Shown one piece after another: positions 2,741 to 11,797 of a DNA stretch of 14,451 nucleotides. The stretch lies in contig CALHGI010000617.1 in assembly GCA_938029995.1 (NCBI GenBank), positions 1 through 14,451 of the forward strand. Direction: 5' to 3'. The DNA is from an uncultured cyanobacterium. Lineage in GTDB: Bacteria > Cyanobacteriota > Cyanobacteriia > Phormidesmidales > Phormidesmidaceae. The position numbers were made by a program, and so were the translations under genes. Under the pieces are notes generated by a model. The model was not told where the DNA came from. It was given only the letters and a program-made list of their open reading frames with translations, and made no database searches. Positions within the stretch are counted from its first letter, which is position 1, and each line of letters begins with the position of its first letter.

Positions 2741-2786
2741 CACCGGTCGTTTTACCTGCGGAGAATCGACTAGTCTGGACGTGGAG

Positions 2787-2876
2787 GCGTTGCTGCTCCT
2801 TTCATGATGTCCGTGGGAAAGGCCCTGTCCCATGGCATGCCTAACTGGTCGGGTCTTCCGGCCAATCAGCAACGGC
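2787..2876. mobile_element. Putative third copy of the 90-bp inverted-repeat (MITE-like) element, diverged
   Basis: CGTTGCTG (2788-2795) and CAGCAACG (2867-2874) are perfect inverted repeats. The distance between the outer ends is 90 bp when aligned to the two better copies at 10392-10481 and 11699-11788. The last 20 bases match copy 1 at about 15 positions, but the interior is unrelated. The 9-mer TGGACGTGG flanks it on both sides (2776-2784 and 2881-2889), offset by 2 and 4 bases from the aligned ends. The same 9-mer also occurs inverted at 2732-2740, so the target-duplication reading is weaker here. The element ends 34 bp upstream of the kinase ATG and so could carry or disrupt regulatory sequence. 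Confidence 0.45.
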
Positions 2877-4940: not shown

Positions 4941-5117
4941 TAACATTGGGTTACTCCCAGGGCCGCATAGGGCTGTTCTTGGTGGATGTCCGCAGGAGCG
5001 ATATTCACCTCTCCTATTCAATCCGCTGGCGGATCGCAATCCAGATTCACCTTTCCACCAGCGGTTGATTGTGCATAGGGTCAGTGCTATCCGGTTCCGC
5101 CGATTTATCCAGCACCC
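4941..5117 (-). pseudogene. Degenerate Uma2 (DUF820) gene fragment
   Basis: Bases 4941-5062 align without gaps to 5581-5702 of the intact Uma2 gene. After a 7-nt deletion, 5063-5117 align to 5710-5764. By hand count about 130 of 177 positions match. Read on the minus strand, the fragment keeps the family core (PPxD...EV.I....DI....Q.YAA.GV) but has an in-frame TGA (5018-5020 on the + strand) where the intact gene encodes Leu136. The 7-nt deletion also breaks the frame. Only the equivalent of residues about 104-160 remains. The 5' end is replaced by other repeats and the 3' end stops a few bases from the kinase stop codon. It is a dead paralogue, consistent with an old tandem duplication or with import of a related Uma2 copy. 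Confidence 0.8.
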
Positions 5118-5132
5118 CCCCAGTTGAGCCCA

Positions 5133-5396: not shown

Positions 5397-6065
5397 TTAT
5401 CCAATAGATCTCACCCATTCTCGCAAGGCCAATTCAGCATCTACCTCATCCTGTCTAGCTGTTGCTAAAAACTCATACAGTTTTACCTTTGGCACCAATG
5501 CAAACGTTGGACTCACTTCCACTTCTCCATACTCACCATCCTGCAACGCATAAACCCGCCATATTTCGCCGTTATACCGCCAAAATTCTGGAACTCCCAT
5601 GGCCGCATAGAGCTGCAACTTATTGATATCCGTATGGGTGATATCAACCTCCACCACTAAATCCGGTGGCGGATCGCGATCCAGATCCACATCCCGACCA
5701 GCCACCAAAGGTTGATTCTGAATATAGTAAGCATCATCCGGTTCAGCCGCTTTATCCAACACCTCCCTACATAGGGTGGTCGAACCCATCGTTTTCACCT
5801 TCATGCCTAGCTCAACTACCAAAATACGAATAAATAGCTCGATCAATCGAGCTGAAAACTCGTGAATTTCTAGTGGCATAGTAACTTCCAATGTCCCGTG
5901 CATATAGGTGCAACGAACGTTGCGATCTCGACTCAATGTATCTCGCAGTATTTGGTAATGCTGCCAATCAAGAGCACGAAATAAAAATCGTTTTTCACCA
6001 ACCGGCTGTGGTACCGGTTGGGAAATAATCGGGGCGACGCTGACCATAACAGCACTTGGAAGCAA
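5397..6065 (-). CDS. Uma2 family (DUF820) protein, predicted PD-(D/E)XK nuclease fold
   Basis: A 222-aa member of a family heavily expanded in cyanobacteria, whose fold is that of PD-(D/E)XK endonucleases and whose role is unknown. Family landmarks are His68 (EIHEFSARLI), AEPDDAYYIQN (107-117), PPPDLVVEVDITH (132-144, with candidate metal-binding Asp135 and Glu139), Lys149 and Tyr153 in KLQLYAAMGVPEFW, and the following strand with WR.Y. No residue of the core appears missing, so the gene looks intact. ATG at 6065 is used here; Met7 is an alternative. It is 62 bp downstream of the aminotransferase gene on the same strand. A dyad (6093-6105) in this gap could be an operator. A degraded copy lies about 640 bp away at 4941-5117. 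The substrate, if any, is unknown. Confidence 0.9.
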   Translation of the reverse strand: MLPSAVMVSVAPIISQPVPQPVGEKRFLFRALDWQHYQILRDTLSRDRNVRCTYMHGTLEVTMPLEIHEFSARLIELFIRILVVELGMKVKTMGSTTLCREVLDKAAEPDDAYYIQNQPLVAGRDVDLDRDPPPDLVVEVDITHTDINKLQLYAAMGVPEFWRYNGEIWRVYALQDGEYGEVEVSPTFALVPKVKLYEFLATARQDEVDAELALREWVRSIG

Positions 6066-8944: not shown

Positions 8945-8994
8945 TCAAGGTAGTCCGTCTTCTCCCTAAGCTAAAATTTCAGGACTGTTAATGC

Positions 8995-9002
8995 GGAGAG
9001 GG
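8995..9002 (+). promoter_or_regulatory. metY ribosome binding site, decides the start
   Basis: GGAGAGGG precedes ATG 9009 by about 7-10 nt, whereas the in-frame ATG at 8991 lies upstream of it and has no such site. This favours the 427-aa product beginning MSAEYGLGTQ. Confidence 0.7.
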
Positions 9003-9008
9003 TTGTTC

Positions 9009-10292
9009 ATGAGTGCAGAATACGGTTTGGGGACACAATGTTTACACGCAGGTCAAGCACCTGACCCGACCACAATGGCTCGTGCTGTGCCCGTCTATCG
9101 CACCACGGCCTATGCTTTTCGCGATACGGAACATGCGGCTAATTTGTTTGCCCTCAAAGAGTTGGGCAATATTTATACGCGGTTGATGAACCCCACCCAC
9201 GATGTGTTAGAAAAACGGGTGGCGGCCCTAGAAGGGGGAGTGGCAGCCCTGGCGGTGGCATCTGGCACCAGCGCCATTTTCTACAGCATTATTAATATTT
9301 GTCAGGCTGGGGATGAAATTGTTTCTGCGAATACCTTGTATGGTGGCACTTACACCATGTTTAAGGATATCTTGCCCCAGTTTGGCATCAAGGTGAACTT
9401 GGTGGACCCTCGCAACCCTGAGAATTTTCGTGGGGCCATCAATGACAAGACAAAGCTACTGTTTTGTGAAACGGTTAGCAATCCGGGGTTAGAGGTGTCG
9501 GATTTGAGTGCGATCGCAGCCATCGCCCACGACAACGGCATCCCCCTGGTGGTGGATAGCACCTTCACTACGCCCTACCTGATTCGTCCCCTAGAACATG
9601 GGGCCGACATCGTTGTTCATTCCCTCACTAAGTGGATGGGGGGACACGGCACGGGGATTGGCGGCATTATGATAGATTCCGGCAAATTTGACTGGACCTC
9701 CGGCAAGTTTCCCCTGATGAGTGAGCCAGATGCCAGCTACCATGGTCTGCGATTTGCCCATGACCTTGGCCCCTTGGCTCCCATTGCCTATGCCCTACGC
9801 ATGCGGTTGGTACCCCTGCGCAACCTAGGAGCCTGCATCTCCCCAGACAATGCTTGGATCTTCCTCCAGGGCATTGAAACTCTACACCTACGCATGCAGC
9901 GCCATTGTGAAAATGCCATGGCGGTGGCCGAATTTCTACAGCAGCACCCAGCTGTCGAATGGGTCCGTTACCCCGGTTTAGCCACCGATAAGGCCCACGA
10001 CGTGGCCCAGCGCTATTTGACCAAGGGCTTTGGAGCCATGGTGGTCTTTGGCATCAAGGGCGGTGCCGACGCCGGTAAGAAATTTATCGAACAGTTGAGT
10101 TTGTTCTCTCACCTGGCCAATGTGGGTGATGCCAAGAGCTTAGCCATTCATCCGTCATCTACTACCCATTCCCAACTGTCCGAGGCAGATCTAGCCAGCG
10201 CAGGCATTGCCCCTGAGCTGATTCGTCTGGCCATCGGCATTGAAGATGTGGACGACATTATCGGTGACCTCAAACAGGCACTGGCTGCATAG
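9009..10292 (+). CDS. metY: O-acetylhomoserine sulfhydrylase (aminocarboxypropyltransferase)
   Basis: A PLP enzyme that combines O-acetyl-homoserine with sulfide to give homocysteine and acetate, the direct-sulfhydrylation route to methionine. The 427-aa length is typical and longer than cystathionine gamma-synthase (about 380-400 aa). Signatures are the N-terminal GTQCLHAGQAPDP, the YTRLMNPT phosphate-contact segment (Tyr56), the cofactor Asp183 (VVDSTFTTPYL) and the Schiff-base Lys208 in HSLTKWMGGHGTGIGG. The C-terminal SLAIHPSSTTHSQL motif is characteristic. The insertion between about residues 225 and 290 (SEPDASYHGL, LRMRLVPLRNLGACISP) separates MetY from the cystathionine enzymes. metX lies 279 bp downstream on the same strand, which strengthens the call. 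A long leader region with inverted repeats precedes it, but I see no identifiable sulfur-responsive riboswitch. Confidence 0.97.
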   Translation: MSAEYGLGTQCLHAGQAPDPTTMARAVPVYRTTAYAFRDTEHAANLFALKELGNIYTRLMNPTHDVLEKRVAALEGGVAALAVASGTSAIFYSIINICQAGDEIVSANTLYGGTYTMFKDILPQFGIKVNLVDPRNPENFRGAINDKTKLLFCETVSNPGLEVSDLSAIAAIAHDNGIPLVVDSTFTTPYLIRPLEHGADIVVHSLTKWMGGHGTGIGGIMIDSGKFDWTSGKFPLMSEPDASYHGLRFAHDLGPLAPIAYALRMRLVPLRNLGACISPDNAWIFLQGIETLHLRMQRHCENAMAVAEFLQQHPAVEWVRYPGLATDKAHDVAQRYLTKGFGAMVVFGIKGGADAGKKFIEQLSLFSHLANVGDAKSLAIHPSSTTHSQLSEADLASAGIAPELIRLAIGIEDVDDIIGDLKQALAA

Positions 10293-10382: not shown

Positions 10383-10490
10383 CGTAATCTGCCGTTGCTG
10401 ATTTAGAGGATGAATCGATCTGTAAACCTGACTATTAGGCGGATTGAGACTAGTAAAATCATCCCGGGGATCAGCAACGCCCGTAATCTG
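10383..10490. mobile_element. 90-bp MITE-like element, copy 1, with perfect 9-bp flanking repeat
   Basis: The element is 10392-10481, bounded by CGTAATCTG direct repeats at 10383-10391 and 10482-10490. The terminal inverted repeats begin with CGTTGCTGAT on the left and the complement of ATCAGCAACG on the right. They continue as GGATGA after a 5-base mismatch, giving arms of about 23 bp. The interior has no coding capacity. Copy 2 at 11699-11788 has the same length, with about 62 of 90 positions identical and both ends far better conserved than the middle. Identical length, inverted ends and a target duplication are the hallmarks of a small non-autonomous transposable element. A transposase with the same ends would have to lie elsewhere in the genome. 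Confidence 0.8.
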
Positions 10491-10571
10491 ACATGTCCTC
10501 AGCTGTGGGGGACTTAAGGGGGCCTGGATCATGCATGCAGCATAGTCAGTATTTTTTCAACTTTTTCCCTA

Positions 10572-11693
10572 ATGAGTATTGGCCCAGTCCAAACCCAGTT
10601 TTTTCATCTCAATCAACCCTTTCCATTAGATTCAGGCGAATCTTTTGACTCCCTAACCCTGGCCTATGAAACCTATGGCACCCTCAACAGCGACGGCAGC
10701 AATGCCATTTTGGTGCTCCATGCCCTAACCGGCAGTCAGCATGCTGCGGGCATTAACGAGTCGGTGCGTGGGGTGGGGTCCCTGTGGACCGATGAATGTG
10801 TTGTGGGCTGGTGGGATACCTTTATTGGCCCCGGCAAGGCGTTGGATACGGACCGTTATTTTGTGATCTGTGCCAATTATTTGGGCAGCTGCTATGGGTC
10901 CACCGGTCCTCGCTCCACCAATCCTTTAACCGGGAAGCCCTACGGCAGCCAGTTTCCCCAGGTGAGTGCGTGGGATGTCATCCGCAGTCAGCTGTGTTTG
11001 TTAGACTCCCTCGGTATTGATTGTCTGCATGCGGTCATTGGTGGGTCCATGGGGGGCATGCTGTCCATTTTATTGGCCACCCGTTGCCCCCACCGGGTTA
11101 AAACCGTTTTGCCCATTGCCACGGGGCTGCAAACCACGGTGCTACATCGGGTGCATAACTTTGAGCAGATTTTAGCCATTCGCAATGATCCCAAGTTTCA
11201 GGGGGGTGATTATTACGACTCGGAACCGCCGAAGGATGGGTTGTTATTAGCCCGGATTATTTCCCATAAGACCTTTGTGTCTTTGGCGGTGATGGCCAAA
11301 CGGGCGAAACGAGAAATTACTGTAAAACAACCGATTGGTCATTTTTATGAACTGTCTAACCCGATTGAATCCTATATGTTTTATCAGGGGAAGAAGTTTG
11401 CAGAACGCTTTGACGCCAATAGCTATTTGCGCATTATGGACATGTGGCAGCGGTTTAGTTTGAATGCCCAGCAGCCTGATTTATTTAAAGACTGTGGCCA
11501 TCAGCAATATTTAATTTTTAGTGTCGATTCTGATGTTTGTTTTTATCCAGAAGAACAACAGGTCATTGTTCAATCCTTAGAAGCTGCACAGATGCAGGTG
11601 AAACATATTACGGTCCATTCCGATAAGGGGCATGATTCATTTCTGTTAGAGCCCGATCTCTATGCGCCGTATATTCATTTTATTTTGGGCTGA
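10572..11693 (+). CDS. metX: Homoserine O-acetyltransferase
   Basis: An alpha/beta-hydrolase-fold acyltransferase that activates homoserine with an acyl group from acyl-CoA, supplying the substrate of MetY. The 373-aa length is normal. The catalytic triad is Ser159 in the nucleophile elbow GGSMGGM, Asp321 (VDSDVCFYPEEQ) and His354 (KGHDSFLLE). The family motifs NAILVLHALTGSQHAAG (44-60), WWDTFIGPGKALDTDRYFVI and GSCYGSTGP are all present. Acetyl rather than succinyl specificity is inferred from the adjacent metY, since sequence alone does not always separate the two. The ATG at 10572 follows a T-rich leader without a Shine-Dalgarno. Upstream lies one MITE-like copy, and the other begins 6 bp after the TGA stop. 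The stop codon itself falls in that copy's target repeat. Confidence 0.96.
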   Translation: MSIGPVQTQFFHLNQPFPLDSGESFDSLTLAYETYGTLNSDGSNAILVLHALTGSQHAAGINESVRGVGSLWTDECVVGWWDTFIGPGKALDTDRYFVICANYLGSCYGSTGPRSTNPLTGKPYGSQFPQVSAWDVIRSQLCLLDSLGIDCLHAVIGGSMGGMLSILLATRCPHRVKTVLPIATGLQTTVLHRVHNFEQILAIRNDPKFQGGDYYDSEPPKDGLLLARIISHKTFVSLAVMAKRAKREITVKQPIGHFYELSNPIESYMFYQGKKFAERFDANSYLRIMDMWQRFSLNAQQPDLFKDCGHQQYLIFSVDSDVCFYPEEQQVIVQSLEAAQMQVKHITVHSDKGHDSFLLEPDLYAPYIHFILG

Positions 11694-11797
11694 TTCCGCC
11701 GTTGCTGATTTAGGGGATGAACCGCTCTGGAAATGACGCGATACATCCAAATTTCGCAGATCAAATCATACCGAGGATCAGCAGCGCCATGATTCCC
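11690..11797. mobile_element. 90-bp MITE-like element, copy 2, wedged between two convergent stop codons
   Basis: The element is 11699-11788, in the same orientation as copy 1. Its left 30 bases match copy 1 at about 27 positions, and its right end (GGATCAGCAGCGCC) is nearly identical. Flanking nine-mers are CTGATTCCG (11690-11698) and ATGATTCCC (11789-11797), sharing TGATTCC (7 of 9). The left repeat contains the metX TGA, and the right repeat ends directly at the stop codon of the next gene (11798-11800, minus strand). Its long inverted ends could fold into a hairpin that acts as a terminator for both convergent genes. Confidence 0.75.

Follow-up and report, generated by a model that had tools for sequence, protein, structure and literature searches.

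Genes and repeat elements in the window

The window, i.e., the whole stretch of 14,451 nucleotides analyzed from an uncultured cyanobacterium of the family Phormidesmidaceae, contains two methionine genes on the forward strand: a metY-like O-acetylhomoserine sulfhydrylase gene (8991..10292, +; TIGR01326 above cut-off) and metX, encoding homoserine O-acetyltransferase (10572..11693, +; NF001209 above cut-off). We find that these genes are accompanied by two copies of a 91-bp inverted-repeat element, both reading GCCGTTGCTGATTTAG...GGATCAGCARCGCC in the same orientation, with copy 1 (10391..10481, +) in the metY-metX gap and copy 2 (11698..11788, +) directly 3′ of metX. An earlier note on this DNA described two elements of identical length and orientation with conserved ends and diverged cores, which our analysis bears out; the length of 90 bp that it gave is corrected to 91 bp in both copies, the element starting at the G that precedes CCGTTGCTG, one base upstream of the start noted earlier.

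Copy 1 lies between two identical copies of CGTAATCT (10383..10390 and 10482..10489). This is the perfect flanking duplication reported before, at 8 bp instead of 9 bp; the apparent ninth match comes from the G that opens the element, which another G happens to equal by coincidence. The flanks of copy 2, CTGATTCC (11690..11697) and ATGATTCC (11789..11796), agree at 7 of 8 positions, which replaces the earlier count of 7 of 9. The metX stop codon (11691-11693) lies inside the left duplication of copy 2, and the element itself starts 5 bases past the end of this codon. With copy 2 placed on the metX stop and copy 1 in the metY-metX gap, effects on the expression of the methionine genes are possible, judging from position.

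In addition to these two copies, the window contains a decayed third copy on the reverse strand (2786..2876, -), which had been missed. It is exactly 91 bp long, matches the arms at 41 of 64 positions (maximum of 34 in 20 shuffled windows), and has flanks, GACGTGGA and AACTTGGA, that agree at 6 of 8 positions. Copy 3 sits in the gap ahead of an open reading frame at 2911 and is adjoined by a further inverted repeat (2731-2752/2764-2785). The window also holds a direct repeat of just under 190 bp (4942-5120 and 5582-5767), whose two units are 73-77% identical. It surrounds neighboring reading frames on the minus strand and may reflect the duplication of a small gene.

Spread in the host genome and its relatives

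The host assembly (G000; 3.74 Mb in 733 contigs, 70% complete) contains many copies of the element. Counting by the left arm only and allowing at most 3 mismatches, we obtained 108 matches in this genome and 164 in a second genome of the genus (G006), with 0 matches for the reversed-pattern controls. Each window copy matched at least 41 places in the host genome. When the best 40 of 155 candidates for copy 1 and of 161 candidates for copy 2 were scored, identity to most of the best-listed places was 94-96% and 95-98%, respectively. Among 65 fetched 91-bp host copies, the median identity to the nearest neighbor was 98%, and 39 of 64 flanked host copies have perfect duplications. These copies include two large clusters of 30 and 29 members, sizes that were favored by the use of the two window copies as BLAST queries; despite this bias on the cluster share, amplification in the host genome is recent.

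The element is present in all eight genomes of the host genus that we examined. In the other 55 genomes of the host family, clear copies occur in three (G014, G023, and G029) and weak matches in four (G025, G063, G075, and G085). Across the class, 11 of 388 genomes gave a match at E 1e-5, all of them inside the host family, and an exact arm match was absent from viral contigs. Copies in three of the genus genomes (G003, G004, and G005; n = 22) include no perfect duplication and eight at 7 of 8 positions, and in these small samples the copies look older. The closest named records by metX are an uncultured Leptolyngbya MAG, Leptolyngbya sp. Heron Island J, Leptolyngbya sp. PCC 7375, and Adonisia turfae. 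In the nearest named relative, a left end of the element, clipped by the contig end, lies about 60 bp downstream of that strain's own metX (L091:4182-4245) and appears to have been inserted independently beside this gene.

Target duplications, empty sites, and mobility

A flanking duplication was consistently found, and its length is 8 bp. Using 111 copies with both flanks (from 115 elements, with four near a contig end dropped and a few elements counted twice), we observe 51 perfect duplications and 68 with at least 7 of 8 matches at this length, compared with 1 of 111 perfect at 9 bp; when the flanks of this set were randomly paired, 1.2% reached at least 7 of 8. In the non-redundant set of 142 distinct copies, detected with a ceiling of 9 mismatches in each arm, above which more decayed copies are missed, 138 have flanks, and of these 53 are perfect and 76 reach at least 7 of 8 at 8 bp. 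The tabulation of flanking 9-mers proposed in the earlier note thus upheld the duplication and replaced its length. The 53 perfect duplications are 75% A+T, compared with 52% for host-genome flanks.

To identify empty sites in relatives, we compared joined flanks with six genomes of the genus at five sites, i.e., those with a duplication of at least 6 of 8 among 13 joins (leaving out L066/L088, one site shared by G003 and G004), and a single target copy was found at two of the five. For example, one copy of G004 (L077), filled also in G003, is inserted in a dispersed repeat, and four aligned copies of this repeat carry one AAAAATAT and no element. At the second locus, filled in G003 and G004, the corresponding site in G007 is empty and carries one CAGTATTT. 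At two of the remaining sites, G003 and G004 both carry the element, and the last site has no junction-spanning match elsewhere. The intergenic DNA flanking metX in the named relatives is too diverged for empty sites to be read. A comparison of 400-kb stretches of G003 and G004, of which about 77 kb are collinear, showed two probed elements aligned in both genomes and no empty site, with ten further elements lying outside the collinear part and giving no alignment. A dispersed repeat of the host genus that is distinct from the 91-bp family (L283, L284, L288, and L289), at least 120-150 bp long and present in several genomes, is hit by one copy of the element.

The 8-bp duplications and the empty sites at two independent loci demonstrate that the 91-bp element has transposed, and the reading of the repeats as a non-autonomous transposable element (MITE), proposed from the two window copies, is supported genome-wide. 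The insertions are seldom genic: a long joined frame was obtained for only 2 of the 76 copies with good duplications, and in neither case did we regard it as a real, interrupted gene. This bears on a different account, in which the element would be an in-frame coding insert; Rickettsia palindromic elements are described as such in a section of a review (PMC10969869). The arithmetic would suit it, since 91 + 8 = 99 bp keeps the frame and could account for the constant length, but a frame that stays open throughout, with at least 90 nt on each side, was seen in just 6 of 142 copies, and together with the joined-frame result this makes the account hardly credible. At one host copy (L023), the surrounding frame extends for 1.5 kb in one direction and 95 nt in the opposite one, and this insertion may change the terminus of a gene.

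Anatomy and fixed length of the element

The element has a variable core of 27 bp between two arms, which are imperfect, about 32 bp long, and show block-wise conservation. In copy 1 these are the left arm (10391..10422, +; placed by column conservation and end comparison), the hypervariable core (10423..10449, +; placed by core versus arm identity), and the right arm (10450..10481, +), an imperfect inverse of the left. Among 37 representatives less than 85% identical to each other, mean identity is 77% in the arms and 42% in the core. Using the same number of representatives, restricted to 91-bp copies, we found that the arms pair at 60% of positions, compared with at most 33% at slid offsets, and that the core pairs at 33%, compared with up to 32%. 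The mismatches in the arms (13-16 with 76-79, and 24-27 with 65-68), which separate the pairing blocks, are themselves conserved, and we infer that the blocks, about one helical turn apart, are spaced as for protein contacts on one face of the DNA.

These patterns were also used to weigh the alternative that the repeats are a functional structured RNA or a REP-type palindrome that spreads by recombination. Both strands of the two window copies fold better than shuffled sequences (z -4.7, -3.4, -3.7, and -2.4), as would be expected from any inverted repeat, and a few pairs exceed their shuffled partners (11-81, z 4.4; 39-53, z 3.6; 22-70, z 3.3; and 4-88, z 3.1). Set against this are the conserved arm mismatches, core pairing that does not improve on the slid offsets, and the absence of an Rfam match in the window, so that the folded RNA, named earlier as the competing reading, is not favored. 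As an account of how the element spread, it is contradicted by the empty sites, found alongside the 8-bp duplications, and we regard it as very improbable; a secondary RNA role for the element is possible.

The length of the element is nearly constant. Exactly 91 bp was found for 122 of the 142 distinct copies (65 of the 68 host copies and 57 of the 74 from other genomes), and 12 of the 20 that differ are 90 or 92 bp long. A constant length combined with a core free to vary suggests a constraint on the spacing of the ends. Shorter forms include an 81-bp form (L112:2345-2425) and a 43-bp miniature (L116:2054-2096) that has both arm tips almost without the middle.

Similarity to IS1-family elements

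A likeness of the arms to IS1, which we at first presumed, was then tested in the genomes of the host family. A protein search showed relatives of IS1 at E 1e-10 or better in at least 44 of 63 family genomes. From matches to PF03400 in 11 genomes we arrived at elements of 777 bp in G014. These have GGCATTGCTGAAATGAGGGATGA and GGCGTTGCATAATTGAGGGATGG as their ends, two overlapping frames that both score above the NCBIfam IS1 cut-off, and a perfect 8-bp duplication in one of three copies. IS1 elements with the same kind of ends were found in six further genomes (G008, G059, G023, G067, G032, and G062), i.e., such elements exist in other genera of the host family. One subgroup (L162, L178, L227, L145, and L185) is about 750-780 bp long with ends GGCGTTGCATAAT and GGCGTTGCTGAAT, and stop codons interrupt the transposase frame in several of its copies. 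Perfect 8-bp duplications flank four of the IS copies (L162, and L227, L228, and L236 in G059), with none in copies such as L163, L164, and L173.

The left arm of copy 1 resembles the right ends of these sister-genus elements. The right ends of seven elements match a MITE arm at 16-19 of 23 bases, with the similarity extending through GGGATGA, and the left ends of four match at 15-16 of 23, barely above a background whose maximum is 15 of 23, reached at 2 of 28,180 window positions. A related IS1 subgroup (L172) scores 14 of 23, and two IS1 ends read in the host genus score 5-8. Identity between MITE and IS is confined to the ends. We rejected a plain internal deletion of a sister-genus IS as the origin of the element, since both MITE arms are like the right end of the IS (GCTGA) and not like its left end (GCATAA).

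The two kinds of element overlap in part in their distribution. Of the three genomes outside the genus with a clear MITE, G014 and G023 carry such an IS1, and in G029 the MITE is present and a close IS1 absent. Several family genomes, e.g., G059, G022, and G034, contain the IS yet no MITE match. In the host genus, four of eight genomes have weak IS1 relatives only (33-40% identity among the matches listed). One IS1-family copy of the genus (L156:942-1764, in G003) carries GGTAGT at its ends and is flanked by CAAATCAG, duplicated perfectly over 8 bp.

Search for a full-length partner in the host genus

A cognate IS1 partner would carry GGCGTTGC ends. The earlier note had proposed looking for a transposase gene lying between two such arms; a gene of this kind was not found in the host genus, nor was any IS with the MITE arms, in genomes of which several are about complete and the host assembly 70% complete. 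Our search with GAT end patterns covered G003, G004 (among the matches listed), and G007, and that with GAV end patterns covered G000, G001, G003, G004 (again among the matches listed), G005, and G006; 40 end-matched regions were fetched. In G007 most ends pair at 81-93 bp, and the single inward pair, about 1.4 kb apart, was rejected as an IS since the element at its start is already closed by a right end after 93 bp. Most ends in the GAV-end regions are single. A 2.5-kb end pair in G003 was likewise rejected, with no duplication and ends judged to be coding. The left-end pattern of the IS gave one partnerless match each in G002, G003, G004, and G006 and no credible IS; three of these four share the sequence that follows, which we judged to be coding.

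Proposed mechanism

We consider it probable that the element is a MITE mobilized in trans by an IS1-family transposase. According to this model, an IS1-family DDE transposase acting in trans would bind the arms and pair both ends of the element, and the 91-bp unit would be inserted into AT-rich, mostly non-coding DNA, leaving the 8-bp target duplication. The constant length would then reflect a need for spacing or helical phase when ends so close together pair. Since our searches of the genus yielded no IS1 whose ends match the arms, we infer the enzyme family, probably IS1, from the end sequence and the duplication length. The transposase serving the host copies may be unassembled, lost, a diverged IS1, or a member of another family.

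A transposase of another family, e.g., IS5/IS903, IS6, ISL3, or IS1595, is an alternative that gains from the missing partner. Some of these families have ends starting with GG and duplications of 8-9 bp, and similar termini are seen elsewhere, in GGCTTTGTTGCACAAA-ended IS of Acinetobacter (IS5-type), mostly with 9-bp duplications. The duplication of the 91-bp element is 8 bp, however, and its likeness to the right ends of the IS1 subgroup runs through GGGATGA, so that, with transposase searches that covered the IS1 family, we think this alternative unlikely, while according it a real chance. Within the IS1 reading, a more specific version is that a length-locked MITE amplifies without a resident cognate transposon, relying on the enzyme of an IS1 with different ends (for instance, the GGTAGTCC type read in the genus), and that the length of 91 bp is mechanical. 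We hold this version to be a rather long shot; if true, 91 bp would represent the helical phasing of ends that are nearer than one DNA persistence length, and the geometry of the IS1 transposition complex would be readable from the spread of lengths that occur in nature.

These findings describe a MITE family of high copy number, with empty sites demonstrated, in one group of filamentous cyanobacteria, tied to IS1 by its ends and its duplication length. Across species, older copies occur side by side with recent ones, near-constant in length and variable in the core, which makes a length requirement for end pairing testable. The main interest of the 91-bp element lies in this strict length and in the missing partner.

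Comparison with known systems

The sister-genus IS1 elements (L162 in G014; L178 in G008; L227, L228, and L236 in G059; and L145 in G023) are like the MITE over their ends of about 23 bp and in the 8-bp duplication. They differ in being about 750-780 bp long with transposase frames and one GCATAA end, whereas the MITE is non-coding with two GCTGA ends. REPINs, which are not known to leave a target duplication and depend on a RAYT transposase, have similar paired arms, but the 91-bp element shows 8-bp target duplications. The published account of REPINs describes short paired inverted arms in many copies, mostly extragenic (PMC3116915).

Among cyanobacteria, the MITEs of Anabaena sp. 90 are comparable by description, differing from our element in length and lineage: sections of the original report give 147 complete or partial copies, 132 of them intergenic, of 77-541 bp, and state that these do not evidently resemble the inverted repeats of resident IS (PMC3542288). 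Other cyanobacterial MITEs are catalogued in part of a review (PMC10969869). A search of the open-licence literature, including one with the arm 10-mer, revealed among the papers listed no account that we recognized as the same family, and as far as checked the 91-bp element is a new family within the known MITE kind.

A fixed length combined with a variable core already has a published parallel, the closest to our element, in MITEAba12 of Acinetobacter, as portions of its description show (PMC6382973). The two share a near-fixed length, a variable center, conserved terminal repeats, and a likeness to IS at the ends only. According to the same portions, MITEAba12 is 111-114 bp long (90% at 113 bp), 40% of copies have target duplications, these being of 9 bp, and its ends are like those of ISAba12 and relatives (GGCTTTGTTGCACAAA), which are co-resident in its hosts (PMC6382973). 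The 91-bp element, in contrast, has 8-bp duplications and IS1-like ends, with no partner found in its genus.
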